Of a DNA stretch of 64,000 nt, positions 12,105 to 30,759 are shown one piece after another. How positions within the stretch are numbered: position 1 is the stretch's first letter; each line of letters opens with the position of its first letter. The notes beneath the pieces were generated by a model. That model made no database searches, had not been told where the DNA came from, and worked only from the letters and a program-made list of their open reading frames with translations. The position numbers and the translations under genes are program-made. This stretch comes from Desulfovirgula sp. (GTDB lineage Bacteria > Bacillota > Desulfotomaculia > Desulfotomaculales > Desulfovirgulaceae). The stretch spans positions 1-64,000 of the forward strand of contig DYEX01000061.1 of the NCBI GenBank assembly GCA_020725525.1, in the 5' to 3' direction.

Positions 12105-12264
12105 GATTCAACCGGGATTTCGTCAGATGCTGTATGATGTTTCGTCCTGCGATGGTTAATGAGAACAGGCCAGTTCGCAGGGATGGTAAAACAGCTACCC
12201 TTTTTCCATCAACCTCTGTTTTGTAATTATAAAGAGGGCTACCTGTAAAACCGGAGGGATTGAA

Positions 12265-13830: not shown

Positions 13831-13920
13831 GAGTTGAGTCAGCAGTATCGAGCCACCGGCGGTACCCGGTTCATGGCCGGCGACAAACACACGGTTGCCG
13901 GGTGCCGCCGCTAAAAATTC

Positions 13921-13956
13921 CGGCTGCCGGCACTCATAATTAAGAACCGGCAGCCG
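13921..13956. other. Perfect inverted repeat before fliL
   Basis: CGGCTGCCGG (13921-13930) and CCGGCAGCCG (13947-13956) form a perfect 10-bp stem. On the plus strand no T-tract follows; on the minus strand the stem is followed by GAATTTTTA, so it would terminate antisense transcription. It may also be a processing hairpin between hook and export genes. Confidence 0.55.
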
Positions 13957-13974
13957 CAAAAAGGGTGTTTCCAG

Positions 13975-14457: not shown

Positions 14458-14518
14458 GCCCGGGCCGGCGCCATGCCCCGAACGGCTGAATAACAATTGA
14501 TGAAAGCAGGCGGTACCC

Positions 14519-14899: not shown

Positions 14900-15366
14900 G
14901 CGACGGCGACCTGTTCTGGGCGGTGGTGCAGCTGGCCGTGAGCCTGCCCCTGGTGGCCGGCCTGGCCTACCTGGCCGTGCGCTACGGGCTGGGCCGCCGC
15001 CTGGCCGTCAACCGGGGCCGGCACATGCGGGTGGTCGAGCAGGTACCCCTGGGACCGAAGGCCGCCCTGACTCTCGTGCAGGTGGGCCGGCGCTACTACC
15101 TGCTGGCCCAGCAGGAAAGCGGTGTGACCCTGCTGCAGGAATTCGACCACCTTCCGGAAGTGCTGCCGTTTCCCGGTACGCCCGCCGGGGACGGGCTCCG
15201 GCCGGCCTCATTCCGCCAGGATCTATCCCTGGCCATAAACCGGTTGAAGGAACGGTTCACCGGTGAAAAACCGGCTGCGCCGGATAACGGGCAAAAGCGT
15301 TTATTGAACCGACATCAAAGCCATCGGGATGAACAAAAAGATGAAAACACTGCCGGAAAGAAATAG
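14896..15366 (+). CDS. fliO: Flagellar biosynthesis protein FliO
   Basis: FliO helps assemble the FliP ring of the export gate. The 156-residue product has one N-terminal membrane helix (about 8-28), then the FliO domain with MRVVEQVPLGPKAALTLVQV and VGRRYYLLAQQESGVTLLQE, and a long hydrophilic tail. Translation is coupled to fliN through the ATGA overlap. Weakly conserved family, but position before fliP and the domain pattern are clear. Confidence 0.85.
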   Translation: MSDGDLFWAVVQLAVSLPLVAGLAYLAVRYGLGRRLAVNRGRHMRVVEQVPLGPKAALTLVQVGRRYYLLAQQESGVTLLQEFDHLPEVLPFPGTPAGDGLRPASFRQDLSLAINRLKERFTGEKPAAPDNGQKRLLNRHQSHRDEQKDENTAGKK

Positions 15367-16315
15367 CTGCAAGACCTCAAAGCCTGGCATGAGCCGCGGT
15401 CCGTCCTTCCGATTGACCGGTAAGGGGGCGGGCGTAAAACACAGCACCGGCGCCGGGGGGATGGAAGTAGTTCCGGCGGCCGGACCGGGTGGACGGGAAG
15501 TTGTCCTTCCCGGGACTTCCGGGACGATAGCCGGGTTCAGCCGGTTGTTGCCGGCGAAACGCCCCGCCTGGCCTTACAGCCTGCCGGCCCTGGTGTTCCT
15601 GCTGGCCCTTATATTGTTCCCAGCAGCAGCCCAGGCGCAGCCCCTGCCGGGCATCGACCTGCGGGTCACCCCCACGGACAACCCGGCCCAGGTGGTGGAC
15701 AGCGTCAAGCTGCTGGTTCTGCTCACGGTGCTGGCCCTGGCCCCGGGCCTCCTGATCATGGTCACCAGCTTTACCCGCATTGTGGTGGTCCTGTCCATCC
15801 TGCGGGGAGCCCTGGGCATACCGCAAACGCCGCCCAACCAGGTGATCATCGGCCTGTCCCTGTTCCTGACGTTTTTTGTGATGACACCTACCTTTCAGGA
15901 AATTAACCGGGAGGCCCTGCAGCCCTATTTAAACAACCAGTTGACTCAGGAGCAGGCCTTTGAGGCCGCGGCCAAACCGCTGAAGACATTTATGCTCAAA
16001 CAAACCCGGGAGAAGGACCTGGCCCTGTTCGTAAGCCTGGCCAAAATGCCCCGGCCCCGGAATGCCGACGACCTGCCCTTAACGGTGGTCATTCCGGCTT
16101 TCGTAATTAGCGAATTAAAAACCGCCTTTCAAATAGGCTTTCTTTTGTACGTGCCCTTCCTGGTCATCGATATGGTGGTGGCCAGCGCCCTGATGTCCAT
16201 GGGCATGTTCATGCTGCCCCCAGTAATGATCTCGCTGCCCTTCAAGCTGCTGCTTTTTGTGATGGTGGACGGCTGGTACCTGGTGGTCCGGTCCCTGGTG
16301 GAAAGCTTTCATTAG
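15329..16315 (+). CDS. fliP: Flagellar export-gate protein FliP
   Basis: FliP forms the export-gate ring with FliQ and FliR in the centre of the MS ring. The core is certain: a signal-like helix ending AAAQAQP, then LLTVLALAPGLLIMVTSFTR, ALGIPQTPPNQVIIGLSLFL, and C-terminal helices with DMVVASALMSMGMFMLPP. From ATG 15329 it is 328 residues, about 70 more than typical, because of a basic Gly/Pro-rich extension overlapping fliO. No good ribosome site marks the start, so the true start may be later (ATG 15389 or 15461). Confidence 0.93.
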   Translation: MNKKMKTLPERNSCKTSKPGMSRGPSFRLTGKGAGVKHSTGAGGMEVVPAAGPGGREVVLPGTSGTIAGFSRLLPAKRPAWPYSLPALVFLLALILFPAAAQAQPLPGIDLRVTPTDNPAQVVDSVKLLVLLTVLALAPGLLIMVTSFTRIVVVLSILRGALGIPQTPPNQVIIGLSLFLTFFVMTPTFQEINREALQPYLNNQLTQEQAFEAAAKPLKTFMLKQTREKDLALFVSLAKMPRPRNADDLPLTVVIPAFVISELKTAFQIGFLLYVPFLVIDMVVASALMSMGMFMLPPVMISLPFKLLLFVMVDGWYLVVRSLVESFH

Positions 16316-16420
16316 AAGTTAAAACGAGCGAGGGCCAGAGCAGGCCAGGTTGGAAAGTGGGGATAACTCAGAGAGGTTAGCAAAACGGTGGTAAACCGAT
16401 AACCGTAGGGGGAAAACGCT

Positions 16421-16690
16421 GTGACCGATACCCTTGTCACCCAAATCGCCCGGGAAGCGCTGATGATGATCCTGATCCTGTCCCTGCCCACCCTGGCGGT
16501 GTCGCTGCTGGTGGGGCTGGTAATCAGCATCCTTCAGGCCACCACCCAGGTGCAGGAGCAGTCCCTGACCTTCGTGCCCAAGATCATTGCCGTCTTCCTG
16601 ACACTGGCCATCACCGCTCCGTGGATGGTCCGGCTGATGACCAGTTACACCACGCGGCTTTTCAACCACCTGCCCAACCTCACGGGGTAA
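16421..16690 (+). CDS. fliQ: Flagellar export-gate protein FliQ
   Basis: Small export-gate subunit with two membrane helices, 89 residues, the standard length. Visible family features are ALMMILILSLPTLAVSLLVG and QATTQVQEQSLTFVPK in the cytoplasmic loop. Start is GTG 16421 with TAGGGGGA about 8 bases upstream. It lies about 105 bases after fliP, a longer gap than usual for this pair. Confidence 0.93.
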   Translation: MTDTLVTQIAREALMMILILSLPTLAVSLLVGLVISILQATTQVQEQSLTFVPKIIAVFLTLAITAPWMVRLMTSYTTRLFNHLPNLTG

Positions 16691-16703
16691 GGAGAGAGCC
16701 AGA

Positions 16704-17474
16704 TTGCTCAACTATGAAGCGGCAGCAACCTTCATCTTAATCTTCGTACGGGCCAGCGCTTTTTTAGCGGCGGGACCCCTGTTTTTCTTCCCCAGCGTGC
16801 CCCGGCCGTTCAAGGCCTTCATGGCTTTTGTGCTGGCCGTGGTGCTTTTCCCCGTGGTGCCGGGAGTGGAACCGGACTTTCCAGGAGGGCTTTTGGGATT
16901 TGCCCTTGCGGCGGCCGAAGAAGCCGGCGTCGGTCTGGTCCTGGGTTTCATTGCCAGCCTGGTCTTCCAGAGCCTGACCATGGCCGGACAGATCATGGAC
17001 ATCCAGATGGGCTTTTTCATGGCCAACCTTTTCGACCCGGCCATGGGCCACCAGGCCACCATCAGCTCCCGTTTCCTGTACCTTCTGGGCATGGTGCTCT
17101 TTCTCATCCTGGACGGCCATCACGTGCTCATTGCCGGCCTGGCCAGGAGTTACGAACTGGTACCCCTGACCGGTGCCGCCCTGGACGGAACCACCACCCT
17201 GACCGTGGTCAAGATTTTTGCGCGCATGGTGGCCCTGGCCGTCCAGATTGCCGCCCCCGTGGTGGCGGTGGTGCTGATCATCGATATCTGCCTGGGCCTT
17301 TTGGGCCGCACCGCTCCGGAAATGAACATTTTCATGCTGGGCTTTCCGTTGAAGATAGCTCTGGGCATCCTCACCTTAAGCGTGATGGTTCCGCTTTTCG
17401 GCGTGGTCTTCCGGGCTATGGTCCGCATGATGGAGCAGGACCTGTACACAGTGATCCGCGGGCTTTCCGGGTGA
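16704..17474 (+). CDS. fliR: Flagellar export-gate protein FliR
   Basis: FliR is the single-copy export-gate membrane protein that seals the FliP/FliQ channel. The 256-residue product is strongly hydrophobic with about six membrane segments. It has the family motifs VPRPFKAFMAFVLAVVLFP and MDIQMGFFMANLFDP. Start is TTG 16704 after AAGGAGAG at about 7 bases. Confidence 0.93.
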   Translation: MLNYEAAATFILIFVRASAFLAAGPLFFFPSVPRPFKAFMAFVLAVVLFPVVPGVEPDFPGGLLGFALAAAEEAGVGLVLGFIASLVFQSLTMAGQIMDIQMGFFMANLFDPAMGHQATISSRFLYLLGMVLFLILDGHHVLIAGLARSYELVPLTGAALDGTTTLTVVKIFARMVALAVQIAAPVVAVVLIIDICLGLLGRTAPEMNIFMLGFPLKIALGILTLSVMVPLFGVVFRAMVRMMEQDLYTVIRGLSG

Positions 17475-17479
17475 TACGA

Positions 17480-17526
17480 AATAAGTTAATGAATGGCGTG
17501 CCAGGCACCTGATTTATTAACTTATT
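17480..17526. repeat. Nested inverted repeat between fliR and flhB
   Basis: AATAAGTTAAT (17480-17490) and ATTAACTTATT (17516-17526) are perfect 11-bp inverted repeats. Between them is GTGCCAGGCAC, itself a near-perfect palindrome. There is no T-tract. It is AT-rich unlike its surroundings and could be a miniature mobile repeat or an RNA-processing hairpin inside the operon. Confidence 0.75.
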
Positions 17527-17544
17527 GGAAAGAGGGGATGAAGA

Positions 17545-18615
17545 TTGGCCCACGGCGGGGGCGCCCAGCAGAAAACTGAAGCCCCAACCCCAAGGCGATT
17601 GCAGGAAGCCAGGCGCAGGGGCCAGGTGCCGAAGAGCAGGGACTTTGCCGCGGCAGTAGTGCTCATGGCGGCTGTCATCCTGGCCTACCTTTTAAGGGGT
17701 CCGGCCATGGAAAACTGGCAGAAAGAGCTCACCTGGTATTTCAGCAACTGTCTGGCCTTTGATCTGGCACCCGAACACCTGCCCCGGGTAATTTACGATG
17801 TCGCCCGCGGGGCGATATGGATGTGCACGCCGTTTTTCCTGGTGCTCACCGGTGCAGCCCTGGCGGTGCACCTGGTGCAAACAGGCTTCATCTTTGCTCC
17901 GGAGGTGATCAAACCCAACCTGGAGCGGCTGAATCCGGTCAGCGGCCTTTCCCGCATGTTCAGCCTGCGCACCCTGGTGGAGCTGGGTAAAAGCATCCTT
18001 AAGGTAACGGTGGTGGCGGGGGTCAGTTACCTGGTGGTCAAAGCGCACCTGCATGAGCTGCTGCTGGTTTTTCACCGTCCCCCCCAGGCGGCCTTCAGTA
18101 CGGTGACCTGCGTCATGCTGGCGGCGGCCGCAGCCGCGGGCGGTACCTTCCTGCTCCTGGCGGTAATTGACCTCTTCTACCAGCGGTGGGAATATATGCG
18201 CAGCATGCGCATGACCAAACAGGAGGTAAAGGATGAACTCAAACAGACTGAAGGAGACCCGCTCATCAAAAGCTGGCAAAGGCGCCGCCAGCGGCAGATC
18301 CTGCTCAACCGTATCCGGCAGGAAGTGCCCCGGGCCACGGTGGTAATCACCAACCCCACCCACCTGGCGGTAGCCCTGCGCTACGACGAAAAGGAAATGT
18401 CCGCTCCCCAGGTGGTGGCCAAAGGAGCCGGGGACCTGGCCCGCCGCATCCGGGAACTGGCTGCCGGGCATAAAGTACCAATCATACATAATCCCGAAGT
18501 GGCCCGGACCCTTTACCACCAGGTGGAAATCGGGCAGGAAATCCCGGTGGAGCTCTACCAGGCCGTGGCCCAGATCCTGGCCCTGGTCTACCGCCTGAAA
18601 AAACGGCCGGTGTAA
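17545..18615 (+). CDS. flhB: Flagellar export switch protein FlhB
   Basis: FlhB controls the export substrate switch from hook to filament proteins. The 356-residue product has the basic N terminus KTEAPTPRRLQEARRRGQVPKS, four membrane segments, and a cytoplasmic domain with the autocleavage motif NPTH at about 270-273 in VVITNPTHLAVALRYD. All parts are intact. Start is TTG 17545 with AGAGGGG about 8 bases upstream. Confidence 0.96.
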   Translation: MAHGGGAQQKTEAPTPRRLQEARRRGQVPKSRDFAAAVVLMAAVILAYLLRGPAMENWQKELTWYFSNCLAFDLAPEHLPRVIYDVARGAIWMCTPFFLVLTGAALAVHLVQTGFIFAPEVIKPNLERLNPVSGLSRMFSLRTLVELGKSILKVTVVAGVSYLVVKAHLHELLLVFHRPPQAAFSTVTCVMLAAAAAAGGTFLLLAVIDLFYQRWEYMRSMRMTKQEVKDELKQTEGDPLIKSWQRRRQRQILLNRIRQEVPRATVVITNPTHLAVALRYDEKEMSAPQVVAKGAGDLARRIRELAAGHKVPIIHNPEVARTLYHQVEIGQEIPVELYQAVAQILALVYRLKKRPV

Positions 18616-18633
18616 GTTAAGGAGGGACAAACC

Positions 18634-20709
18634 ATGCCCGCACCCGGCACAACCTTGAGATCACAATTGAAACGCAACACCGACCTGCTTATCGCCGGCC
18701 TGATCGTGGGCATCGTGCTGATGATCATCATCCCCATGCCCCCCAGGGCCCTGGACGTACTGCTTTCCATCAGCATCACCCTGGGGCTGGTGATCCTGCT
18801 GATTACCATGTTCACCACCGAGCCCCTGCAGTTTTCCATCTTTCCGGCCCTCTTGCTGGTAACCACCCTCTACCGGCTGGCCCTGAACATCTCCTCCACC
18901 CGGCTGATCCTGGGGCAGGGCTACGCGGGCAACGTCATCGACGCCTTCGGGCACTTTGTGGCCGGGGGCAATTACGTGGTGGGATTCATCGTTTTCATCA
19001 TCATCACCGTAATCCAGTTTGTAGTAATCACCAGCGGTGCCGGCCGGGTGGCCGAGGTGGCTGCCCGGTTCACCCTGGATGCCATGCCCGGCAAGCAGAT
19101 GAGCATTGATGCTGACTTCAACTCCGGCCTGATCACCGAGGCCGAGGCCCGGGAAAGGCGCAGGAGGCTGCAGCGGGAGGCCGATTTCTACGGTGCCATG
19201 GACGGTGCCAGTAAATTTGTGCGGGGGGACGCCATCGCCGGCATCATCATCACCCTGATCAACATCCTGGGGGGCATTGCCATCGGTACCCTGCAGATGG
19301 GCATGCCCGTGTCCGAAGCCCTGCGCACCTTCACCGTGCTTACCATCGGCGACGGGCTGGTGACCCAGGTGCCTTCGGTGCTCATCTCCACCGCCGCCGG
19401 CATCCTGGTCACCAGGGCCTCCTCTGATGCCAGCTTCGGCACGGACATCTCCCGGCAGTTTACCGGTTTTCCCCGGATCCTCTACCTGGTGGCAGGGATC
19501 CTCTTCGTCCTGGGATGCATCCCGGCCATGCCCAATATCCTTTTCCTTTTGCTCTCGGGGATCAGTTTCCTCGCCGGCAGAAGCCTGGTGCAGGAAAGGC
19601 AAAGGGAGGAGGCCCGCCGGCAGGAGGCCCGGGCGCGGCAGCAGGTGCAGGAAACCCGCCGGGAACCGGAAAACGTGACCACCTACTTCCAGGTGGACCC
19701 CCTGCAAATTGAAATCGGCTACAACCTCATTCCCCTGACCGACGAGTCCCAGGGCGGGGATCTGCTGCACCGGCTGGCGGCGGTGCGCCGGCAGTGCGCC
19801 ATAGAAATGGGTATTTACGTGCGGCCCATCCGTATCCGGGACAACCTGCAGCTGGCCCCCAACGCCTATGTCTTTAAAATCCGGGGGGAACAAACCGCCA
19901 GTGGAGAATTGATGCCCGGCTACTACCTGGCGATGGATCCCACGGGCCAGGCTACCGGTATACCCGGCATACCCACCACCGAACCCACCTTCGGCCTGCC
20001 GGCCTGGTGGGTGCCGGCCGGTGAAAAGGAAAGGCTGGAGCTGGCCGGGCTTACAGTGGTGGATCCTTCCACCGTTATGGTTACCCACCTGACGGAATTC
20101 ATCAAGGCCCACGCCCACGAGCTGCTGGGCCGCCAGGAAGTGAAGGAACTTCTGGAAGCCATCAAGGAAAAGGACCCGGCGGTGGTGGAAGAACTGGTTC
20201 CCGATCTGCTGACCCTGGGCGAAGTGCAGAAGGTGCTGCAAAATCTCCTGCAGGAAAGGGTGCCCATCAGGGATCTGGTGACCATTTGCGAGGCCCTGGC
20301 CGATGGAGCCCGCTTAAACCGGGATAACGATTTTCTTACCGAACACGTGCGCAGCCGTCTTTCCCGCACCATCAGCCGGCTCTACCTGACGCCCGAAAAC
20401 AAGCTGGCCGTACTCACCCTGCACCCCCGGCTGGAGCAAACCATCACGGATTCCATCCAGCAGACCCAGATCGGGGCCTACCCGGTGCTGGAACCCGGGC
20501 TGGCCAGAAAGATCCTGGAAAGGCTGCAGGAGCAGGCCGGAAAGATGAGCCTGAAGGGCCTGACCCCGGTGGTGCTCTGTTCGCCCCGGATAAGGCTGCC
20601 CTTCCGGCGGTTGATTGAACGCAGCCTGCCGGCAGTGGCCGTGTTATCCCTGAATGAAATCGCACCCGGTATCGAAGTGGAAGTGGTGGGGACGGTGATT
20701 GTGGAGTGA
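18634..20709 (+). CDS. flhA: Flagellar export protein FlhA
   Basis: Largest export-gate component, a nonameric ion-driven export engine. The 691-residue product has about eight N-terminal membrane segments with the conserved SISITLGLVILLITMF and the cytoplasmic FHIPEP-type loop region ARFTLDAMPGKQMSIDADFN and GAMDGASKFVRGDAIAGI. The C-terminal half is the large cytoplasmic cargo-binding domain. AAGGAGGGA precedes ATG by about 8 bases. Its last four bases GTGA contain the start of flhF. Confidence 0.97.
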   Translation: MPAPGTTLRSQLKRNTDLLIAGLIVGIVLMIIIPMPPRALDVLLSISITLGLVILLITMFTTEPLQFSIFPALLLVTTLYRLALNISSTRLILGQGYAGNVIDAFGHFVAGGNYVVGFIVFIIITVIQFVVITSGAGRVAEVAARFTLDAMPGKQMSIDADFNSGLITEAEARERRRRLQREADFYGAMDGASKFVRGDAIAGIIITLINILGGIAIGTLQMGMPVSEALRTFTVLTIGDGLVTQVPSVLISTAAGILVTRASSDASFGTDISRQFTGFPRILYLVAGILFVLGCIPAMPNILFLLLSGISFLAGRSLVQERQREEARRQEARARQQVQETRREPENVTTYFQVDPLQIEIGYNLIPLTDESQGGDLLHRLAAVRRQCAIEMGIYVRPIRIRDNLQLAPNAYVFKIRGEQTASGELMPGYYLAMDPTGQATGIPGIPTTEPTFGLPAWWVPAGEKERLELAGLTVVDPSTVMVTHLTEFIKAHAHELLGRQEVKELLEAIKEKDPAVVEELVPDLLTLGEVQKVLQNLLQERVPIRDLVTICEALADGARLNRDNDFLTEHVRSRLSRTISRLYLTPENKLAVLTLHPRLEQTITDSIQQTQIGAYPVLEPGLARKILERLQEQAGKMSLKGLTPVVLCSPRIRLPFRRLIERSLPAVAVLSLNEIAPGIEVEVVGTVIVE

Positions 20710-21986
20710 AAATTAAAAAATATATCGTCAGGGAAATGCAGGAAGCCATGCGCCTGATCAGGGAGGACATGGGACCCGATGCGGTGATTATCGGCAGCTA
20801 CCGCCTGCCCAGGAAGAGCATTTTTGATTTTTTCCGCCCGCCGCAGCTGGAAGTAACTGCGGCCCTGGACGAGCTGCCTGCGGCCCCCGCCCCGGCGGAA
20901 CTGCCTCCGGGAAGGCCGTCCGGGGCTGAGCCTCCTGCCCTGAGGGAAGTGGTAACTCCCGGGACGTTTCCCCCGCCTTCGACTACGCCCCCGGGGGTGC
21001 AGCGGACCCGGAGGGAAGGGGTGATGCTCCTGAGAGAAAGCATTTTCAACAAAGATGGCCCTGAACAAATATTACCTCCCGGTGTAAAAGCACTCGCAAA
21101 TTCAGGACCGGAAAAGGAGGAAAACAATCCCTCCCCCTTTAATATAATCCTGAGGCAACAGGAGGAAACCATGATGGACGGGGACGTTCTTGAAAGATGG
21201 CGCCGGCGCCTGCTGGACATGGAAGTGATGGAAGGAGTGGTGGAAGACCTTTTACGCGGTCTCGAGGTAAACGATACCACCGGGGACGGCGAAGACTTTT
21301 TGCTCCTGCAATTAAAGGGACGGCTGGCCTCCCTGGTGGAAGATGTTTATTCTGCACGGGACCACAGCAGCAAAATCCATGCCTTTATCGGCCCCACGGG
21401 AGCCGGCAAAACCACCACCCTGGCCAAGCTGGCCACCAGGCAGGCCCTTTTCGACCAGAAAAAAATAGCGCTAATCGCCGTATATAGCCACTACTTCGGG
21501 GTGGTGGAGGAACTGAAATTTTACGGCCAGACCATCGGCGTGCCTGTAGAAGTGGTGATGACCCCGGCGGAACTGGCATCGGCAGTGGAAGCCCATCAAG
21601 ACAAGGAGGCCGTTTTCATCGATACCGAGGGCATTTCCTGCCGCAATGCCAGCCAGCTGCTCAAGTTAAAGGGGTTCATGGACGCCCTGCCGCCGTCCCG
21701 CCGGATTTTCCTGGTCCTGAGCGCCACCACCCGCAACCGGGATCTTTTACATATGGCCCGGGAATTTGCCCGGGTGGGATATTCGGATTTCATTTTTACC
21801 AAACTGGACGAAACCCAGACCCGGGGAGGAGCGTTAAACCTGATCCACCAGATGCGCCGTCCACTGGCCTACGTTACCGGCGGGCAGAATGTCCCCGACG
21901 ATATTGCCGGCATGACCCCCCGGCTGCTGGCCACCCTTCTCCTGGAGGGGGGCGAAAACAATGTGGGGGCGGGCTTCCGGGGCTAA
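20706..21986 (+). CDS. flhF: Flagellar GTPase FlhF
   Basis: SRP-type GTPase that sets flagellar position and number. The 426-residue product starts MKIKKYIVREMQEAMRLIRE, has a basic/proline-rich linker region, and an NG domain with the P-loop GPTGAGKTTT from residue 229, the DTEG motif (in place of the usual DTAG) and TKLDET. Start is GTG 20706, overlapping the flhA stop. The end overlaps flhG by 26 bases. Confidence 0.95.
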   Translation: MKIKKYIVREMQEAMRLIREDMGPDAVIIGSYRLPRKSIFDFFRPPQLEVTAALDELPAAPAPAELPPGRPSGAEPPALREVVTPGTFPPPSTTPPGVQRTRREGVMLLRESIFNKDGPEQILPPGVKALANSGPEKEENNPSPFNIILRQQEETMMDGDVLERWRRRLLDMEVMEGVVEDLLRGLEVNDTTGDGEDFLLLQLKGRLASLVEDVYSARDHSSKIHAFIGPTGAGKTTTLAKLATRQALFDQKKIALIAVYSHYFGVVEELKFYGQTIGVPVEVVMTPAELASAVEAHQDKEAVFIDTEGISCRNASQLLKLKGFMDALPPSRRIFLVLSATTRNRDLLHMAREFARVGYSDFIFTKLDETQTRGGALNLIHQMRRPLAYVTGGQNVPDDIAGMTPRLLATLLLEGGENNVGAGFRG

Positions 21987-22893
21987 AGGGGGGCGCATCT
22001 TCGGCCGCGTCCCGGGCGGCAGCCCCATGGCAGGCGTAAACCCGGATGAAGACGTGGTCCCGCCGGCGGAGTCCCGGGCTGCCGTGGCCCGGGTCATCGC
22101 CGTCACCAGCGGCAAAGGTGGGGTGGGCAAAAGCAACCTGACGGTAAACCTGGGCCTGGCCCTGGCCGCTTTAAACCAGCGGGTGATTATCCTGGACGCA
22201 GACCTGGGCCTGGCCAATGTGGAAGTGCTCCTGGGAATAAGTCCTCCCTGTACCCTCTACGACTGCCTCTACAGGGACCGGGATATCCGGGAAGTGCTGG
22301 TGCCCGCTCCGGGAGGAGTGCAGTTCATTTCCGGCGGTTCCGGTTTTCTGGAACTGGCCAACCTGGACCGGGCCCGCTGGCAAAGGCTGCTTTCATCCCT
22401 GGCCCTTCTGGACAACCTGGCCGATTTCATTCTCATCGATACCGGGGCGGGTCTTTCCAAAAATGTGCTGGGCTTTCTGGTTGCCGCCGGGGAAGTAATT
22501 GTGGTCATTACCCCTGAACCCACCTCCCTCACGGACGGTTACAGCATGATTAAGGTACTGGCGCGCTTCAAGGTCCACCGGGAGGTGCTGCTTGCAGTCA
22601 ACCGGGCCGGCAGCGAACAGGAGGCCCGGGCTACCGTCCGCCGGGTGGAAATGGTGGCCGACCGTTTTCTGGGCCTGCCGGTCGTCTACCTGGGTGCCAT
22701 TAATGAGGACCGGGCGGTGATCCGGGCCGTGCGGAACCAGAGGCCTTTTTTCCTGGCAGAGCCCCGCTCCCAGCCCGCCATAAGTGTAGCCGCCATGGCC
22801 CGCTGCCTCACCGGCGGCGGGTCCCGGGAGGAACCGCCCCGGCCGGGATTACGAGGTTTTGTGCAACGCCTGGCCAGGTTATTTGACCGTTAG
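21961..22893 (+). CDS. flhG: MinD-like ATPase FlhG (FleN)
   Basis: ParA/MinD family ATPase that works with FlhF to control flagellar number and place. The 310-residue product has the deviant Walker A SGKGGVGKSN at about 50-59, LDADLGLANVEVLLG and DTGAGLSKNVLGF. The N-terminal extension (about 45 residues) is of the kind that activates FlhF in Bacillus. GGAGGGGGG 9 bases before ATG 21961 decides the start inside flhF. Confidence 0.94.
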   Translation: MWGRASGAKGGRIFGRVPGGSPMAGVNPDEDVVPPAESRAAVARVIAVTSGKGGVGKSNLTVNLGLALAALNQRVIILDADLGLANVEVLLGISPPCTLYDCLYRDRDIREVLVPAPGGVQFISGGSGFLELANLDRARWQRLLSSLALLDNLADFILIDTGAGLSKNVLGFLVAAGEVIVVITPEPTSLTDGYSMIKVLARFKVHREVLLAVNRAGSEQEARATVRRVEMVADRFLGLPVVYLGAINEDRAVIRAVRNQRPFFLAEPRSQPAISVAAMARCLTGGGSREEPPRPGLRGFVQRLARLFDR

Positions 22894-22919: not shown

Positions 22920-23558
22920 TTGTTGGACCAGCTCAGGATAAACCAGAAGATACAGGTGGCAAGGGAGGGGGAAAGGGACTGGTATGCCTCCACCATCCAG
23001 GACATCAAAGGCGGTGAACTGCACATCGCCATGCCCCGCCTGCGGGGGGATGTGCTCGTCCTGACGCCGGGCGATAATGTGAAGGTCCGTTTTTTCGACG
23101 AAAATGCCAGCTTCATTTTCCCCGCCCGCTACCTGGGGCGTACCATAGAAGCCATTCCCCTTTACCGCCTGGCTCCCACGGGCGATTGCCAGCGGGTGCA
23201 ACAGCGCCAGCATGTGCGTTTGAAGACTGTCCTTGAGGTCCACTACGCCCATCCTCCGGAGAAAAACCGCCGCCCCCGGTACAAAAAAGCCTTTACGGTG
23301 GACATCAGTGGCGGGGGTATGCTTCTGGCCATAGACGAACCGGTCCTGCCCGGCAGGGAACTGCTGGTGGAGTTCAACCTGCCCCTGCGCACCGGTGCCC
23401 GGAAGATGGAACTCCGGGGCCGGGTGGTGCGTCTTCAGGAAAGGGAAAAGTCAAAATACCACGTGGCCCTGGAGTTTGTGGACATTACAACCGCCCAGCA
23501 GGATCTGATCATGCGCTACATTTTCCAGTGCATGGCCGAACAGGCTTGGCTGCGCTAG
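22920..23558 (+). CDS. PilZ-domain cyclic-di-GMP receptor (YcgR-like)
   Basis: A 212-residue protein with an N-terminal YcgR-type beta domain (about 1-90) and a C-terminal PilZ domain. Both PilZ ligand motifs are intact: RQHVR (96-100, RxxxR) and DISGGG (128-133, DxSxxG). Such proteins bind cyclic-di-GMP and brake or jam the flagellar motor (YcgR, YpfA/DgrA-type). It lies between flhG and fliA in the riboswitch-controlled operon, so the second messenger should act on both expression and function. Start is TTG 22920 after GGGAGGTC. Confidence 0.92.
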   Translation: MLDQLRINQKIQVAREGERDWYASTIQDIKGGELHIAMPRLRGDVLVLTPGDNVKVRFFDENASFIFPARYLGRTIEAIPLYRLAPTGDCQRVQQRQHVRLKTVLEVHYAHPPEKNRRPRYKKAFTVDISGGGMLLAIDEPVLPGRELLVEFNLPLRTGARKMELRGRVVRLQEREKSKYHVALEFVDITTAQQDLIMRYIFQCMAEQAWLR

Positions 23559-23569
23559 GATGTGAGAGC

Positions 23570-24322
23570 GTGGGTAATAAGGAGAAGCTCTGGCAGGAGT
23601 ACAAGCGAACGAAGAGCCCGGAAATCCGCCACCAGCTCATTCTGTCTTATCTCTGGCTGGTCAAGTACCTGGCCGGCCGGCTGGCCGTCAAGCTGCCTGC
23701 GTGCATGAGCCAGGAGGACCTGGAAAGCTGTGGTGTTTTTGGATTAATAGAAGCAATCGACAAATACGACCCCGATATGGGGTGCGATTTTGAAGCCTAC
23801 GCCAGTATCCGGGTGCGGGGAGCCATGCTGGACGAAGTACGCCGGGCTAACTGGATGCCCCGCACCCTGTGGTACAAGCTGCAGCGGCTCAGGGCTACCC
23901 GGGAGAGACTGGAAAACCTGCACCAGGAAAAGGTATCTATGGAGGCAGTGGCCCGGGAAATGGGTATCACCCGGGCCGAAGTGCACTACCTGGACAACCA
24001 GTTGTACCGCCTGTTCACCCTTTCCCTGGATGAAATGGTGGCCACGGGCAACGGTGAGCCCGTCCGGCTGGGGGACCTGTTGCCCGACGAAACCAGCCCC
24101 GACCCCCTGGACCGCATCACCGAGGAGGAAAACAAGGAACTTCTGGCCCGCGCCGTGGCCAGCCTGCCGGAAAAGGATCAGCTGGTGCTGGCCCTGTATT
24201 ACCAGGAGGGGCTGACCTTAAAGGAAATCGGGGCCGTGCTGGAAGTTTCCGAATCAAGGGTATGCCAGCTGCACAGCCGGGCCATCAACCGCCTGCGCAA
24301 AAAGCTGGCAGAATTAAGCTGA
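23570..24322 (+). CDS. fliA: Flagellar sigma factor FliA (sigma-D/sigma-28)
   Basis: RNA polymerase sigma factor for late flagellar and chemotaxis genes. The 250-residue product has regions 2 (ESCGVFGLIEAIDKYDPDMG and FEAYASIRVRGAMLDEVRR), 3 (MEAVAREMGITRAEV) and 4 (LTLKEIGAVLEVSESRVCQLHSRAINRLR). GTG 23570 gives the usual length and follows AGGATGTGAG; an earlier start would overlap the PilZ gene. Targets such as flagellin are not in the window, and no clear sigma-28 promoter was seen here. Confidence 0.95.
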   Translation: MGNKEKLWQEYKRTKSPEIRHQLILSYLWLVKYLAGRLAVKLPACMSQEDLESCGVFGLIEAIDKYDPDMGCDFEAYASIRVRGAMLDEVRRANWMPRTLWYKLQRLRATRERLENLHQEKVSMEAVAREMGITRAEVHYLDNQLYRLFTLSLDEMVATGNGEPVRLGDLLPDETSPDPLDRITEEENKELLARAVASLPEKDQLVLALYYQEGLTLKEIGAVLEVSESRVCQLHSRAINRLRKKLAELS

Positions 24323-24391: not shown

Positions 24392-25162
24392 ATGATCCGT
24401 GGCATTTATACGGCCGCTTCCGGCCTGGGCGTACAGCAGGCCCGGCTGGACGTGCTGGCCAACAACCTGGCCAACGCCTCCACCAGCGGCTTCAAGGCAG
24501 ACGGCGTCATTCAAAAACCTTTTCCCGAACTCCTGCTGGTGGAACAGCAGGACCGGGGACCCGCGGCCACTGGATCCCGCTGGCGCTATGTGGGCGTAAC
24601 CAATCAGGGTGCAGCAGTCACCCGGGTGGTAACCAATTTTTCCCCGGGTCCCCTCAAAGCCACGGGCAAAAACACCCACCTGGCCCTGGCCACCGCCAAT
24701 ACATTTCTGGTGGTCCAAACACCCCAGGGGGAACGTTACACCCGGGACGGCGACCTGGCGATAGATGGCGAGGGCTACCTGGTGGATTCCCGGGGCAACC
24801 GGGTGCTGGGAGAAACCGGCCCGGTGCAGGTGGAGAACGATGATTTCCGCATTACTGCCGGGGGAGAAATCATTTTGCCCGGACAGGGAACAATAGACCG
24901 CCTGCGTATTGTACAATTTGCCGATCTCAGCCTGCTGGCCAAAACCGGAGACAACTACTATACGGCTCCGGCCGGTAGCGCCCAACCGGCGGCCAATCCC
25001 GAAGTGCGCCAGGGCTATCTCGAAGGGGCCAATGTAGATCCCGCCGCTTCCATGGTGCAGCTGGTCAGCGCCATCCGTTCCTACGAGGCCAACCAGCGCC
25101 TGCTCCAGGCCCAGGACCAGCTTCTGGATCTGGCGGTCAACCGGGTGGGAGCGCTGCGGTAA
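24392..25162 (+). CDS. flgF: Flagellar rod protein FlgF-like (FlhO)
   Basis: A 256-residue axial protein of the distal rod. It has LDVLANNLANASTSGFKADG near residue 22, the middle RYTRDGDLAIDGEGYLVDSRG, and the C-terminal GYLEGANVDPAASMVQLVSA with the YEANQRLLQAQ helix. It pairs with the following flgG-like gene as FlhO/FlhP do in Bacillus. TAGGGAGGAA gives a good ribosome site before ATG. Confidence 0.88.
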   Translation: MIRGIYTAASGLGVQQARLDVLANNLANASTSGFKADGVIQKPFPELLLVEQQDRGPAATGSRWRYVGVTNQGAAVTRVVTNFSPGPLKATGKNTHLALATANTFLVVQTPQGERYTRDGDLAIDGEGYLVDSRGNRVLGETGPVQVENDDFRITAGGEIILPGQGTIDRLRIVQFADLSLLAKTGDNYYTAPAGSAQPAANPEVRQGYLEGANVDPAASMVQLVSAIRSYEANQRLLQAQDQLLDLAVNRVGALR

Positions 25163-25229
25163 CGCCTTTCCTTCACATAGAAACGGCCTGCCGTCCGGGC
25201 GATAAGACATATCTTAATGAGGTGATCCC

Positions 25230-26030
25230 ATGCTGCGAGCCCTTTCAACCGGTGCTGCGGGGCTGACTGCCCAGCAAATCCGCCTGGACACCTGTGCCAA
25301 TAACCTGGCCAACATCAACACATACGGCTACAAAAAGCAGGGAGTCAGTTTCGCCGACCTGCTCTACCAGGAAATGGGCCGGGAAGGTATACCCGCCGAA
25401 AGGAAAGCCCCGCCGGGAGCAAACACCCCCGGCCCCACGCCCCCGGAGGGAAGCGGTGTGCGGGTGGCCGCCGTTTCCCGGGATTTTTGCCCCGGCAGCC
25501 TGATCCGTACCGGCCGGCCGCTTGATGTGGCCATCCAGGGCAAAGGTTTTTTCCGGGTGCGTCTTCCCGGCGGCGCATACGCCTACACCAGAGCCGGCAT
25601 GCTGACCGTGGATGCAGACGGCCGCCTGATCACCCAGCAGGGCTATCCCCTGGAACCGGAAATAATTTTGCCCCCCGGATATCAGTCCGTCACCCTTCAC
25701 TCCGACGGGCGGGTGACGATAATAAACAGTGATCGGCAACAGGAAGAGGTAGGCCGGCTCGCCCTTTACTCCTTTACCAATCCGGCGGGTCTTGCCGCCC
25801 GGGGAGAAAACCTTTACCTGCCCACGGCAGCCAGTGGCGAACCGGTGGAATATTACCCGGGAACCGGCGGCGCGGGTACTTTAATTCAGGGTTGTTTGGA
25901 GGCCTCCAACGTAGACCTGACGATCGAGTTAACCAGCCTTATTGAAGCCCAGCGCATCTACCAGCTGAATTTACGGGTAATCAGCTCGGCTGATGAAATG
26001 TGGAGTATGGCCAATAACCTGCGCAAATAA
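25230..26030 (+). CDS. flgG: Flagellar rod protein FlgG-like (FlhP)
   Basis: A 266-residue distal rod protein. Conserved features are LDTCANNLANINTYGYKKQG, GRPLDVAIQGKGFFRV and the C-terminal GCLEASNVDLTIELTSLIEA followed by QRIYQLNLRVISSADEMW. It starts 67 bases after the flgF-like gene with ATGAGGTGATCC as its ribosome site. It completes the set of rod genes in the operon. Confidence 0.88.
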   Translation: MLRALSTGAAGLTAQQIRLDTCANNLANINTYGYKKQGVSFADLLYQEMGREGIPAERKAPPGANTPGPTPPEGSGVRVAAVSRDFCPGSLIRTGRPLDVAIQGKGFFRVRLPGGAYAYTRAGMLTVDADGRLITQQGYPLEPEIILPPGYQSVTLHSDGRVTIINSDRQQEEVGRLALYSFTNPAGLAARGENLYLPTAASGEPVEYYPGTGGAGTLIQGCLEASNVDLTIELTSLIEAQRIYQLNLRVISSADEMWSMANNLRK

Positions 26031-26093
26031 AAGGGGTAGCCGGTCCGGGGCAGCCGAGAAACCCCGGCAGGCAGTCTCAAAAGGAGGACTGGA

Positions 26094-26603
26094 ATGGAGC
26101 CGGCCAAGGTCGCCAGCGACCCTGTGGAAATACAGGTCGGCATAGCCGACTATAAAATTGGCAGGGACCCGGCCCGGCTGATTACCCTGGGTCTGGGTTC
26201 CTGCGTGGGGGTCAGCCTTTACGATCCCGTGCTTAAACTGGGCGGGCTTTTACACCTGATGCTCCCCGACAGCACCCAGTTCAGCAACGTCACCAAGCCG
26301 GCCAAGTTTGCCGATCTGGGCATACCGCTATTGATCGACGAAATGAAAAAACACGGCGCCCAATTATCCCGCCTGCAGGCCAAGCTGGTGGGGGGAGCCC
26401 AGATGTTCTCCGGCCTGGACAACAAAATGGTTTTGAACATCGGGCAGCGCAATGTGGAAAAGGCCCGGGCGTTGTTAAAGGACGCGGGTATTCCCATTCT
26501 GGCGGAAGAAGTGGGAGGCAACCGGGGACGGACCATGATTTTCGACACCAGCAACGGCAAGGTGAGCATCCGCATGCTGGGGAGCAAATTGAAGGTGATC
26601 TGA
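26094..26603 (+). CDS. cheD: Chemoreceptor glutamine deamidase CheD
   Basis: CheD deamidates glutamines in chemoreceptors and, bound to CheC, tunes adaptation. The 169-residue product keeps the catalytic triad with family spacing: Thr31, Cys37 (GLGSCVGVSLYD) and His54 (LLHLMLPDS). The C-terminal segment GGNRGRTMIFDTSNGKVSIR is also typical. AAAGGAGG lies 9 bases before ATG. cheR follows after one base. Confidence 0.95.
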   Translation: MEPAKVASDPVEIQVGIADYKIGRDPARLITLGLGSCVGVSLYDPVLKLGGLLHLMLPDSTQFSNVTKPAKFADLGIPLLIDEMKKHGAQLSRLQAKLVGGAQMFSGLDNKMVLNIGQRNVEKARALLKDAGIPILAEEVGGNRGRTMIFDTSNGKVSIRMLGSKLKVI

Positions 26604-26604
26604 G

Positions 26605-27393
26605 ATGGATTTTGCCCGGTTCAAGGAAATGATGCGCCAGCACTTTCGCCTGGACCTGAACAGCTACAAGGAAACTCAGCTGAAAAGGCGCCTGGACGCC
26701 TACCTGTTGCGGCGACAGCTTCCCGACTATGGCGCACTGTTCCAGAATCTCAAAAACGACCCCGGAGCCTACCAGTCCTTACTGGATTATCTGACCATCA
26801 ACGTATCGGAGTTTTTCCGGGACCCGGAAAGGTTTCGGGAGCTGGAAAGTATTGTTTTACCCGCCCTTTTAAAAGAAAAAAGAACGCTGAAAATATGGAG
26901 CGCCGCCTGCGCGGCGGGCGCCGAGCCTTACTCGGTAGCCATCATCCTGGAAGAACTTACCCCGGGACACCTGCACCACCTGGAGGCTACCGACATAGAT
27001 CAGAACATTCTGGTCAGGGCAAAAGAAGGCCGGTACCCCCCCGACGTTGTACGCAACGTAAGCTCGCAGCGGCTGGCCCGTTTTTTCACCCGGGAAAACG
27101 GTTTTTTTGTCATTAACGAAAATATCCGCCGGCGGGTGACCTTCAGGCGCCACGATTTGCTGAACGATCCCTTTGGTCAGGGTTACGACCTGATCCTGTG
27201 CCGCAACGTGACCATTTATTTTACCAGGGAAGCTCAGGACAGGTTAAACCAGAAACTTGCCCGGGCCCTTGTACCGGGGGGGGTATTATTTATTGGAGGA
27301 AGCGAAATGATTTTTAATTACCGGGAGCTGGGATTGCAAAAGTTACGCACCTGTTTTTACTGCAAGCAGGGGGCAAAGGGGGGGAGCTCTTGA
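26605..27393 (+). CDS. cheR: Chemotaxis methyltransferase CheR
   Basis: S-adenosylmethionine-dependent methyltransferase that methylates receptor glutamates. The 262-residue product has the N-terminal helical domain (QLKRRLDAYLLRR), the linker NVSEFFRDPERFREL, the SAM motif IWSAACAAGAEPYSVAIIL (about 96-114), a TDIDQN acid motif and DLILCRNVTIYFT. Its TGA overlaps the TTG start of cheC. Confidence 0.95.
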   Translation: MDFARFKEMMRQHFRLDLNSYKETQLKRRLDAYLLRRQLPDYGALFQNLKNDPGAYQSLLDYLTINVSEFFRDPERFRELESIVLPALLKEKRTLKIWSAACAAGAEPYSVAIILEELTPGHLHHLEATDIDQNILVRAKEGRYPPDVVRNVSSQRLARFFTRENGFFVINENIRRRVTFRRHDLLNDPFGQGYDLILCRNVTIYFTREAQDRLNQKLARALVPGGVLFIGGSEMIFNYRELGLQKLRTCFYCKQGAKGGSS

Positions 27394-28019
27394 GCTACAG
27401 GCCTCTTTCACCGGTGGAACTGGACGCCCTTAAAGAAATCGGCAATATCGGGCTGGGTAACGCGGTGACCTCCCTGGCCCAGCTAATCAACCGCCGGGTG
27501 AACATGCGGGTACCCCGCAGCAGCTTTCTGCCCTTTGAAGAAATGATTGAACTGGTGGGAGGCTACGAGGAGCTGGTGGGATGTGTGAGCCTGCGGGTGC
27601 TGGGGGATGCCCCGAGCATAGTACTGTATATCTTCGACAAAGAAAGCACCTTCCACCTGGTAGACATGCTCATGGGCCTGCCGGTGGGTACAACCGGAGA
27701 ACTGGATGAAATGGCCCAATCGGCAATAAAGGAAATCGGCAATGTGCTTACCGGTTCCTTTGTCAGTGCCATCAGCATGATGACCGGCCTGAAAATGATC
27801 ACCACCGTGCCGCTGTTTGCCTTCGACATGCTGGGTGCGGTGCTGACTTCCCTGATGGTGGCCGCGGGAAGGGTGGAAGACCAGGTGCTGGTTATTGAAA
27901 CAGAGCTGTTCCATAATGCGGAAACATTGATTAAAGGGCACTTTTTCCTGCTCACCGAACCGGGAGCCATCGACCGGCTGATGGCCGCCCTCGGTTTCAG
28001 TGAAGGGCAGGGCTCTTAA
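27390..28019 (+). CDS. cheC: CheY-P phosphatase CheC
   Basis: CheC hydrolyses CheY-P and binds CheD. The 209-residue product has both active-site pairs of the family: Glu16/Asn19 in LKEIGNIGLGNAV and Glu115/Asn118 in AIKEIGNVLTGSF. The spacing matches Thermotoga CheC. Start is TTG 27390 after GGGGGGGAG, overlapping the cheR stop. Confidence 0.94.
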   Translation: MSYRPLSPVELDALKEIGNIGLGNAVTSLAQLINRRVNMRVPRSSFLPFEEMIELVGGYEELVGCVSLRVLGDAPSIVLYIFDKESTFHLVDMLMGLPVGTTGELDEMAQSAIKEIGNVLTGSFVSAISMMTGLKMITTVPLFAFDMLGAVLTSLMVAAGRVEDQVLVIETELFHNAETLIKGHFFLLTEPGAIDRLMAALGFSEGQGS

Positions 28020-28041
28020 AACATGCGAGGGGGAAACAGCA

Positions 28042-28416
28042 TTGGGTAAAAGGATCCTGGTGGTGGACGACGCTGCCTTCATGCGCATGATGATTAAAAA
28101 CATCGTCACCAAAAACGGCTATGAAGTAGCGGGGGAAGCTGAAAACGGCAAGCAGGCCGTGGAGAAGTACGCCGAATTAAGGCCCGATATTGTCACCATG
28201 GACATCACCATGCCCGAGATGGACGGCATCGACGCAGTGAAGGCCATCCGGGCCATTGATCCCAACGCCAGCATTATCATGGTCAGTGCCATGGGTCAGC
28301 AGGCCATGGTCATGGACGCCATCCAGGCCGGAGCAAGGGACTTCATTGTCAAGCCCTTTCAACAGGACCGTCTCCTGCAGGCTATTGAGCGGGTGCTATC
28401 CCGTTCCCGCAAGTAA
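28042..28416 (+). CDS. cheY: Chemotaxis response regulator CheY
   Basis: Single-domain receiver, 124 residues. The acidic pocket VVDDAAFMR, phospho-acceptor Asp54 in VTMDITMPEMDG, the switch Ser in MVSAMGQ and Lys in FIVKPFQ are all present. TTG at 28042 is chosen because GAGGGGGAA lies 7-8 bases upstream and the product then starts at the first beta strand. Its kinase CheA is not in this window. Confidence 0.95.
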   Translation: MGKRILVVDDAAFMRMMIKNIVTKNGYEVAGEAENGKQAVEKYAELRPDIVTMDITMPEMDGIDAVKAIRAIDPNASIIMVSAMGQQAMVMDAIQAGARDFIVKPFQQDRLLQAIERVLSRSRK

Positions 28417-28437
28417 TACCATAAGGAGGCGTGTTGA

Positions 28438-29433
28438 ATGCAGGAAGTCCTGAGCCAGGGGGAAATAGATTCCCTTCTGGCGGCCCTTACCTCCGGTGAA
28501 CTGAGCCTGGAGGAGGCCCAAAAGTCCCCGGCTTCCCCGGTCAAACCCTACGACTTCCGCCGGCCGAATAAATTTTCCAAGGAGCACCTGCGCACCCTGG
28601 AAATGCTGCACCAGCATTTTGCCCGGCTCCTGTCCAGCTTCCTTTCCGGCTACCTGCGGGCCACGGTCAGCGTGGAAATGGCTTCGGTGGGACAGATGAT
28701 CTATGAAGAATTCATCCGTTCCATTCCCAGCCCTACGGCCCTGGCCGTTTTTAGTTTAAAACCCCTGGAAGGTTCGGCACTGATGGAAACCAATACCCAG
28801 GTGGTTTTTCCCATGCTGGACCTGCTTTTCGGCGGGCCGGGTACTTCCACAGTTCAGATACGGGAACTGACCGACATCGAGCTGACGGTGGTACGGCGGC
28901 TGGTAAAACGCATTTTAGAGCACCTGGCCCAGGCCTGGCATGATTTTTATACCGTTGAGCCGGAAGTCCAGGCCATCGAAACCAACCCCAGAATGCAGCA
29001 GCTGTACTCACCCAATGAAGTGGTGGCGCTGATCACCTTTGCCGTATCCATTAACGAAGAAGAGCGGGGTTTTATCAATCTGTGCCTGCCGTATATATTG
29101 ATGGAGCCGGTGATATCCCGGCTTTCGGTGCGCCAGCAGTTCAGCCGCCAGGTGGGGGGCCCCCGCCCCGAGGATCTGGAGCGGCTGAGCCACTGGCTTG
29201 GATTTTCCCGGGTGGAATTGCAGGTGATCCTGGGAGAAACGGAAATCACCGTGCATGAATTGCTGCAACTGCAGGAAGGAGACGTACTGGTGTTAAACCG
29301 CCATCTAAACCAGGACCTGGACCTTTACGTGGAAGGGGAGCGTAAATTTGGCGTGCAGGCCGGCCGGGTGGGACAGAATATGGCGGTGCAGGTGGTATCG
29401 CTCATTGAGGAGGAAGTAAATGGTGCCGGATAA
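28438..29433 (+). CDS. fliM: Flagellar motor switch protein FliM
   Basis: C-ring protein that binds CheY-P and joins FliG to FliN/FliY. The 331-residue product has the N-terminal CheY-binding peptide VLSQGEIDSLLAAL, the CheC-like middle domain with QMIYEEFIRSIPSPTALAVF, and a C-terminal SPOA domain (HELLQLQEGDVLVLN). AAGGAGGCG precedes ATG. The last 14 bases overlap fliY. Confidence 0.96.
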   Translation: MQEVLSQGEIDSLLAALTSGELSLEEAQKSPASPVKPYDFRRPNKFSKEHLRTLEMLHQHFARLLSSFLSGYLRATVSVEMASVGQMIYEEFIRSIPSPTALAVFSLKPLEGSALMETNTQVVFPMLDLLFGGPGTSTVQIRELTDIELTVVRRLVKRILEHLAQAWHDFYTVEPEVQAIETNPRMQQLYSPNEVVALITFAVSINEEERGFINLCLPYILMEPVISRLSVRQQFSRQVGGPRPEDLERLSHWLGFSRVELQVILGETEITVHELLQLQEGDVLVLNRHLNQDLDLYVEGERKFGVQAGRVGQNMAVQVVSLIEEEVNGAG

Positions 29434-30724
29434 TAATCAGTTTTTAAGTCAGGAAGAAATAGACGCCCTGCTAAAGGCCGCTGGCGGAGAACCTGCGCCG
29501 GAAGAGGACCCGCAGGCCGGACAGGGGGCGGAAGAAGCGGCTGCTACCTCCACAGTGGCCCGCGAGGATACTCCAGGGGAATATATGGAGGCTCCGGACA
29601 TTGATTCCGGGGTGGCCCCTGAACTATCCGGGGAACCTGCAGGCACCATCTCGACAGTGGGTGAAGCGCCGCCGGAAAGCAGCCCCCTGACCGCAGTGGA
29701 CCTGACCCCCGAAGAAAGGGATGCCCTGGGGGAAATTGGCAACATTTCCATGGGCTCCGCAGCCACCACCCTGTCCGAACTCCTGAGACAGAAAGTAACC
29801 ATTACCAGCCCCCGGGTGGTCACCTGCACGCAGGAAAAGCTTTTTGCCAGCTTTAAGGTCCCCTATGTAATCATTCAGGTGGAGTTTAAGGAAGGGCTCA
29901 AGGGGTTCAACGTACTCATCATCCAGTTAAAGGACGCCATGGTCATGGCCGATTTGATGATGGGCGGCGACGGTACCAACGTGTCGGAACAGATCTCCGA
30001 ACTGGAGCTTTCGGCAGCCTCGGAAGCCATGAACCAGATGATCGGCACGGCCTCCACCTCTTTAGCTACCATCTTCCGCCGTACCATCAACATCTCCCCA
30101 CCCCAGACCACAGTACTGGAGGTGTCCGAAGGAGGGGCCGGTTACCGGCTGCCCATCGAAGACCCCATTGTCGTGGTTTCTTTTAAGATGACCATCGGCG
30201 ATCTGGTGGATACGGAGATCATGCAGATCATGAGCCTGGAGACGGCCAGGGAGGAGGCCGCCATCCTTTTAGAGCAGTTAACGGCGGAAACGACAGCTCC
30301 CGCCCCGGAACCGGCAGCCGGAGGGCAGGAGACCGTCCCGCCCCCTGAACCACAGCCGGCGGTTGCCCGGGTGGAAACACCCCCGGCAAGGGTTGTAGGG
30401 GCACCGCCTGCGAGCGGTGAAAGGCGCGCTTTTGCCACCTTAAGCGAAGAGGAGCAGCGTAAGCTGGAGCTGCTGCTGGACATCCCCCTGAAGGTCAGCG
30501 TGGTCCTGGGCCGCACCCGGCGGCCCATTAAGGAGGTACTGGGTTTGACGCCGGGAGCCATTGTGGAACTTTCTTCCCTGGTGGATGAACCGGTGGAGGT
30601 GCTGGTGAACGGCACCCTGGTGGCCCGTGGGGAAGTGGTGGTGGTCAACGAAAACTTCGGCGTGCGCATCACCAGCATTATCAGCCCGGAAGAGCGGGTG
30701 GAACAGCTGGGAACGCGGCATTGA
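29420..30724 (+). CDS. fliY: Flagellar motor switch phosphatase FliY
   Basis: A 434-residue fusion of three parts: an N-terminal FliM-like peptide (FLSQEEIDALLKA), a CheC-type phosphatase domain with paired Glu/Asn motifs (LGEIGNISMGSA and ASEAMNQMIGTAS), and a C-terminal FliN/SPOA domain (about 345-430, with GLTPGAIVELSSLVDEPVEV and GEVVVVNENFGVRI). Pro/Ala-rich linkers separate the domains. It removes phosphate from CheY-P at the switch. Last gene of the operon; a strong terminator follows. Confidence 0.94.
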   Translation: MVPDNNQFLSQEEIDALLKAAGGEPAPEEDPQAGQGAEEAAATSTVAREDTPGEYMEAPDIDSGVAPELSGEPAGTISTVGEAPPESSPLTAVDLTPEERDALGEIGNISMGSAATTLSELLRQKVTITSPRVVTCTQEKLFASFKVPYVIIQVEFKEGLKGFNVLIIQLKDAMVMADLMMGGDGTNVSEQISELELSAASEAMNQMIGTASTSLATIFRRTINISPPQTTVLEVSEGGAGYRLPIEDPIVVVSFKMTIGDLVDTEIMQIMSLETAREEAAILLEQLTAETTAPAPEPAAGGQETVPPPEPQPAVARVETPPARVVGAPPASGERRAFATLSEEEQRKLELLLDIPLKVSVVLGRTRRPIKEVLGLTPGAIVELSSLVDEPVEVLVNGTLVARGEVVVVNENFGVRITSIISPEERVEQLGTRH

Positions 30725-30730: not shown

Positions 30731-30759
30731 CAGGCGGGTAACCCCGCCTGCAATTTTTT
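30731..30759 (+). terminator. Terminator of the flagellar/chemotaxis operon
   Basis: CAGGCGGG (30731-30738) and CCCGCCTG (30743-30750) form a perfect 8-bp stem with a TAAC loop, followed by CAA and six T (30754-30759), with a second T-rich stretch shortly after. It begins 7 bases after the fliY stop and is the only strong terminator since the riboswitch. Confidence 0.9.

Follow-up and report, generated by a model that had tools for sequence, protein, structure and literature searches.

The flagellar gene run and its PilZ protein

The window, that is the whole stretch of 64,000 nt of DNA that was analyzed, harbors a long run of flagellar and chemotaxis genes with a c-di-GMP-I riboswitch ahead of it. 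The following features were assigned:

2085..2174, + strand: c-di-GMP-I (GEMM-I) riboswitch aptamer (Rfam RF01051, 69.6 bits versus a gathering score of 35)
2182..2203, + strand: predicted OFF-switch expression platform, an intrinsic terminator with its stem at 2182-2197 followed by CTTTTT (sequence, folding)
2222..22893, + strand: 23 genes, flgB-flgC-fliE-fliF-fliG-fliH-fliI-fliJ-fliK-flgD-(Flagellar_put)-flgG-like-flgE-like-fliL-fliN-like-fliO-fliP-fliQ-fliR-flhB-flhA-flhF-flhG (Pfam; gaps ≤160 nt)
22920..23558, + strand: pilZ, c-di-GMP receptor of the YcgR/MotI type, putative flagellar brake or clutch (PilZNR and PilZ, Pfam)
23570..24322, + strand: fliA/sigD-type sigma factor (Sigma70_r2 and r4, Pfam; GTG start read from the sequence)
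24392..30724, + strand: remainder of the run with two flgF/flgG-like rod genes, cheD, cheR, cheC, cheY, fliM and fliY (Pfam)
30731..30750, + strand: terminator-like hairpin ending the run (8 pairs, 7 of them GC, tail CAATTTTTTA)

The pilZ gene sits between flhG and fliA, about 20 kb past the riboswitch. The 23 flagellar genes in between are all on one strand, and the largest gap is 160 nt. flhG ends at 22893, which leaves 26 nt to pilZ, and fliA begins 11 nt after pilZ if it starts with the GTG at 23570, the first in-frame start past the pilZ stop codon. Gene starts were taken from a mechanical ORF list, and the start of flgB (TTG at 2222) was read from the sequence. The score of fliJ is under the Pfam cut-off, and flhF and flhG were named from domain type together with position. 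The initial annotation had placed a c-di-GMP receptor-type protein within a flagellar run that begins behind a c-di-GMP riboswitch; the common strand, the short gaps and the RF01051 match in the leader confirmed this.

The gene layout suggests that a single RNA of more than 20 kb runs from the riboswitch through pilZ. Sites resembling sigma-A promoters occurred at about chance frequency (9 versus 5.6 and 7 versus 5.1 in shuffled sequences, both strands). On the + strand none was present at the scan threshold between 16901 and 25696, the scans covering some promoter types and not all. A simple pattern based on the sigma-D consensus, with the CGA core required, gave no sigma-D-like site near pilZ. 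Terminator-like sites were at chance level in 1900-16900 (16 versus 19.7 in shuffles) and above it in 16901-31500 (30 versus 18.7, both strands), so that an internal terminator may exist in the latter region. Ahead of the hairpin at 30731, the clearest of these sites is at 27078-27101, downstream of pilZ. Past the flagellar run, a glycan-type cluster extends from 30885 to 45663 and comprises Wzy_C, an ABC-2 transporter, glycosyltransferases, a pyruvyl transferase and LPG_synthase_TM.

The pilZ ORF has a TTG start and encodes 212 aa. PilZNR (residues 7-85, E 2.3e-16) and the PilZ domain (residues 94-203, E 6.2e-19) both scored above their Pfam cut-offs and follow each other in the order expected of YcgR/MotI-type proteins. 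The ligand motifs of PilZ proteins are defined as RxxxR and (D/N)xSxxG, and the protein carries both, as RQHVR at 96-100 and DISGGG at 128-133. In an alignment they pair with RQYVR and NISAGG of B. subtilis YpfA (PDB 5VX6). A PDB search with the single sequence matched this structure, YpfA/MotI, and no other (E 5.4e-8); with the profile it ranked first (E 6.8e-28), followed by 2gjg and 3kyf, which were deposited as uncharacterised proteins. The PDB sequence searches, run at E 0.01, returned no chain named YcgR; the Pfam text for PilZNR reads 'Flagellar protein YcgR'. An AlphaFold2 model built from three input sequences was of low confidence (mean pLDDT 58.7).

Two named relatives are Desulfofundulus thermosubterraneus, with 96% identity, and D. 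thermobenzoicus, with 75%; Desulfofundulus is placed in the Bacillota, class Clostridia. Across 19 aligned relatives with 35-95% identity to the window protein (three Desulfofundulus proteins, the window's included, and 16 of 30 order-level loci, all placed by tblastn coordinates and not by motif), 13 columns were invariant, among them R96, R100, D128, S130 and G133. Both ligand motifs were kept in 33 of 33 proteins, 15 from genomes with and 18 from genomes without a flagellar riboswitch; these ORFs were located at PilZNR matches and picked with the motif pattern, and not all are independent (L034 equals L036 in the motif region, and L010 was judged to be from the same genome as G065). No PilZ match besides the window pilZ was found in the 191 contigs of the genome. 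Domains and motifs support the assignment of the window protein as a MotI/YcgR-like, c-di-GMP receptor-type protein; the initial annotation had called it a c-di-GMP receptor with both ligand motifs kept. It would be expected to bind c-di-GMP and to act as a brake.

MotA and MotB each gave a single match in the genome. Both lie on contig C186, and none of the riboswitch matches falls on that contig. The view that 'motor and brake' are together under the riboswitch is, therefore, right for the rotor and basal body and wrong for MotA and MotB. If PilZ works like MotI, its target would be MotA. Since MotA is encoded outside the window gene run, the stator could be lost at high c-di-GMP through sigma-28, through another route, or not at all. 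The simple pattern with the required CGA core gave no sigma-D-like site on the motBA strand of locus L163.

At least eight c-di-GMP-I riboswitch matches (150 of 270 candidates scored) and fifteen GGDEF matches are present in the genome. One of the riboswitches (L003 950-1040, contig C65) precedes the gene for an HD_5 (HD-GYP-like) protein, which is possibly a c-di-GMP phosphodiesterase in a feedback loop. Contig C65 also carries two GGDEF matches and another riboswitch, which lies ahead of a gene for a STAS protein. Further riboswitches precede a T2SSF (PilC-like) gene (L002 1501-1589) and a gene for a Cache-domain protein (L007 176-259).

The riboswitch leader and the predicted direction of switching

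The match to RF01051 is full length (model positions 1-87) and was the sole Rfam match in the window at the gathering score. The closing helix P1 (CAUUGUC/GACAAUG) is present, and a terminator-like hairpin, CCGACC-UUCG-GGUCGG-CUUUUU, follows at +8 after the aptamer. A hairpin with a U tract, starting at least 4 nt past the aptamer, was found for 37 of 38 flagellar riboswitches. The minimum-energy fold up to the U tract holds P1, P2, P3 and the terminator together.

In the ensemble without ligand, the probability of P1 was 0.36 and that of the terminator 0.54. As a stand-in for the ligand we used a soft constraint in which six pairs of P1 and P2 each received a bonus of 5 kcal/mol. The terminator probability was 0.99 when P1 and P2 were favored in this way and 0.29 when P1 was penalised. 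Among nine leaders of family f1, the value with the favored aptamer was equal to or above the free value in all nine and at least 0.99 in eight. Penalising P1 lowered it below the free value in six of the nine; the penalty had no effect in L141 (0.99), and in L136 and L137 the value was 0.00 with and without it.

The terminator does not overlap the 3' strand of P1. An antiterminator above chance was not found in the window leader, where 119 of 200 shuffled arms paired equally well, and the strong antiterminator considered at first for this leader was dropped. Complementarity of a terminator arm to the aptamer passed 10 of 200 shuffles in only 7 of 37 leaders. The switching mechanism is therefore the prediction of an energy model with an added ligand stand-in. 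The aptamer would be expected to bind c-di-GMP, and folding, together with the experimentally established OFF riboswitch of the C. difficile flgB operon (PMC6366702), favors OFF, the case considered in the initial annotation, as the predicted direction in vivo.

Two further observations concern the leaders. An inverted repeat, TTTGACA-gcgt-TGTCAAA, lies upstream of the riboswitch at 1994-2011 and could be an operator or part of a promoter; several leaders of the same genus show its right half only. In L143, from the same-genus genome G064, tandem c-di-GMP-I-like aptamers (1111-1198 and 1379-1467) precede flgB, each followed, as judged by eye, by its own terminator-like hairpin. The second of them, which model R1 scored at 54 bits, was absent from the Rfam matches at the gathering score.

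Conservation of pilZ and occurrence of the riboswitch

We searched 113 genomes of the order and found PilZNR in 90, RF01051 in 97 and FliE in 92. Of the 92 FliE genomes, 61 have PilZNR 15-24 kb downstream of fliE and on its strand. In 26 it was found elsewhere, on a different contig in 25 and at an unlinked site of the fliE contig in G030, and five have no PilZNR. FlhG, PilZ and FliA were adjacent in 31 of 32 loci, the exception, L023, giving PilZ only. The stretch upstream of fliE, about 2.5 kb and shorter at contig ends (G008, G100, G005), was taken from the other 91 genomes. Rfam found a c-di-GMP-I aptamer in 37 of them, always on the coding strand, which makes 38 of 92 with the window. Five of the 37 (L085, L082, L086, L092 and L093) score best as the c-di-GMP-I-GGC variant, RF03167. 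In L073, L076, L085, L088 and L092 the aptamer is about 120-155 nt before the FliE match, compared to about 1 kb usually, and flgB and flgC do not lie between aptamer and fliE.

Riboswitch and linked pilZ occur together in 28 of the 92 genomes, which belong to eight families. With a riboswitch, PilZNR was elsewhere in eight genomes and without a match in two (G081, G103). Genomes without a riboswitch had PilZNR linked in 33 cases, elsewhere in 18 and not at all in three. When the comparison was limited to the 62 genomes that carry both genes on the same contig, pilZ was linked in 28/28 with and in 33/34 without the riboswitch; there was no association. A covariance model built from 29 flagellar aptamers recovered all 37 Rfam loci of the order, 28 of which were in its training set, and in addition L106 of genome G078. 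The share of linked pilZ genes without a riboswitch is 33/61, or 32 if this weaker match is counted.

The arrangement is not confined to the order. In a phylum sample of 149 genomes, 119 genomes outside the order had FliE, and PilZNR was linked in 78 of these, on another contig in 26, absent in 12 and unlinked on the same contig in three. Over order and phylum sample the distance from fliE to PilZNR is 15-26 kb downstream. The aptamer search outside the order covered the 78 linked genomes, so that the comparison of genomes with and without linkage applies to the order. The covariance model found a flagellar aptamer, always on the coding strand, in 28 of the 78; for the 20 genomes put through both methods, Rfam and the model agreed in every case (6 with, 14 without). 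Counting 28 genomes of the order and 28 outside it, riboswitch and linked pilZ were found together in 56 of the genomes sampled. The arrangement recurs in many related bacteria and is not unique to this genome.

The initial annotation had treated the pairing of riboswitch and pilZ as something special. This did not hold, as the position of pilZ is conserved with and without the riboswitch. A linked invention of the two was rejected, since pilZ keeps its place without the riboswitch in more than half of the linked genomes of the order (33/61).

Two proposed layers of c-di-GMP control

Swimming appears to be under c-di-GMP control at two points, an RNA switch and a brake-like protein. We consider it probable that an old brake gene was kept with the flagellar operon and that a c-di-GMP-I OFF switch was placed in front as a separate layer. 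Since pilZ is part of the operon whether or not the RNA switch is there, an old brake gene with an easily gained or lost RNA layer is the simplest account. The pilZ gene would be an old, stoichiometric accessory gene of the clostridial-type flagellar and chemotaxis operon. Its MotI/YcgR-like product, when loaded with c-di-GMP, would slow or disengage the motor, most likely by contacting MotA. The riboswitch would form the second layer: rising c-di-GMP would stabilize the aptamer, the terminator at 2182-2203 would form, and termination would cut new transcription of the rotor, export, brake and sigma-28 genes together. Because the brake is cut along with the basal-body genes, its synthesis would be confined to cells in which basal bodies are made too. 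The brake would act at once on motors already built and would later be diluted along with them. Both the read-through over 20 kb and this timing are what we infer from the gene layout, from which 'fast stop, slow loss' plausibly follows.

Selection might instead have put the protein receptor under the RNA receptor as a purpose-built nested circuit, in which the ligand sets the abundance of the brake and times a fast stop and a slow loss. The co-occurrence in 28 of 92 genomes of the order, spread over eight families, and in 28 of 78 linked genomes outside would agree with this. We regard it as unlikely, since pilZ is linked without the riboswitch in 33/61 genomes (32 with G078 counted), linkage is the same with and without the riboswitch (28/28 versus 33/34), and PilZNR gave no match in genome G081, where the riboswitch is present. 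With the position of pilZ kept either way, the pair does not give the impression of a purpose-built circuit. The fixed order flhG-pilZ-fliA in 31 of 32 loci, and the fact that the presumed target MotA is encoded elsewhere, could also point to a PilZ protein with a role other than braking, as a c-di-GMP-dependent partner of FlhF, FlhG or FliA that acts on flagellar number, flagellar placement or sigma-28 activity. This is quite improbable given that the best match of solved structure is YpfA/MotI, a clutch reported to bind MotA (PMC7064775), and that Pfam names PilZNR after the flagellar protein YcgR.

The longer window leader folds with the flgB ribosome-binding region (2208-2216) paired to an aptamer strand. 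Such an alternative fold would fit a riboswitch that switches ON or works through flgB translation, with the ligand raising the synthesis of motor and brake. We give this very little credence: favoring the aptamer never lowered the terminator probability in the nine leaders, the terminator leaves the 3' strand of P1 free, and leaders of the same genus have extra sequence between terminator and flgB. Among these readings, the old brake gene with a separate OFF layer is the one we prefer.

Whether the same holds across the Bacillota is a wider question. We propose only tentatively that RNA and protein receptors of c-di-GMP are nested in one flagellar operon across the phylum, that the ligand sets the activity of the brake and, more slowly, its abundance, and that the RNA layer was gained and lost many times on a fixed, brake-bearing operon. 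If so, cells would become progressively less brakeable under prolonged high c-di-GMP, and when the signal falls the remaining motors would restart at once and rebuilding would be slow. The picture of c-di-GMP acting on motility at two levels, the expression of genes and the function of the motor, is usually assembled from genes that are not linked; in the window both receptors lie in what looks like one transcription unit. The 56 genomes with both layers, and others with pilZ but no riboswitch, offer natural comparisons of the share of each layer in stopping and restarting.

In B. subtilis, motI lies outside the flagellar operon, unlike the window pilZ, which lies inside the flagellar run. MotI (DgrA, YpfA), the clutch reported to bind MotA (PMC7064775), is like the window protein of the PilZNR plus PilZ type, and the ligand motifs of the two align. 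A pilZ gene in the flgB-fliA locus of Eubacterium and Roseburia was already published (PMC3720852), so that there, too, pilZ belongs to the main flagellar locus. In most of those genomes, unlike the window, pilZ is followed by cheBAWCD with fliA last, and the accessible parts of that paper mention no riboswitch. Titles and abstracts, which made up most of the literature searched, gave no description of a pilZ gene nested in a flagellar operon under a c-di-GMP riboswitch.

The c-di-GMP-I riboswitch Cd1 (Cdi-1-3) of the C. difficile flgB operon was found to be OFF by experiment (PMC6366702). As in the window, a class I aptamer lies before flgB, followed by a terminator and a long early flagellar operon including a sigma-28-type gene (PMC6366702, PMC6200980, PMC11477304). 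The OFF direction was measured for Cd1 and is predicted for the window, and pilZ lies directly before fliA in the window, whereas the available text on the Cd1 operon mentions no PilZ. The YcgR protein of E. coli and Salmonella, which has the same domain pair as the window PilZ by Pfam naming, is described as a brake made under, and co-regulated through, the flagellar regulon (PMC12713396).
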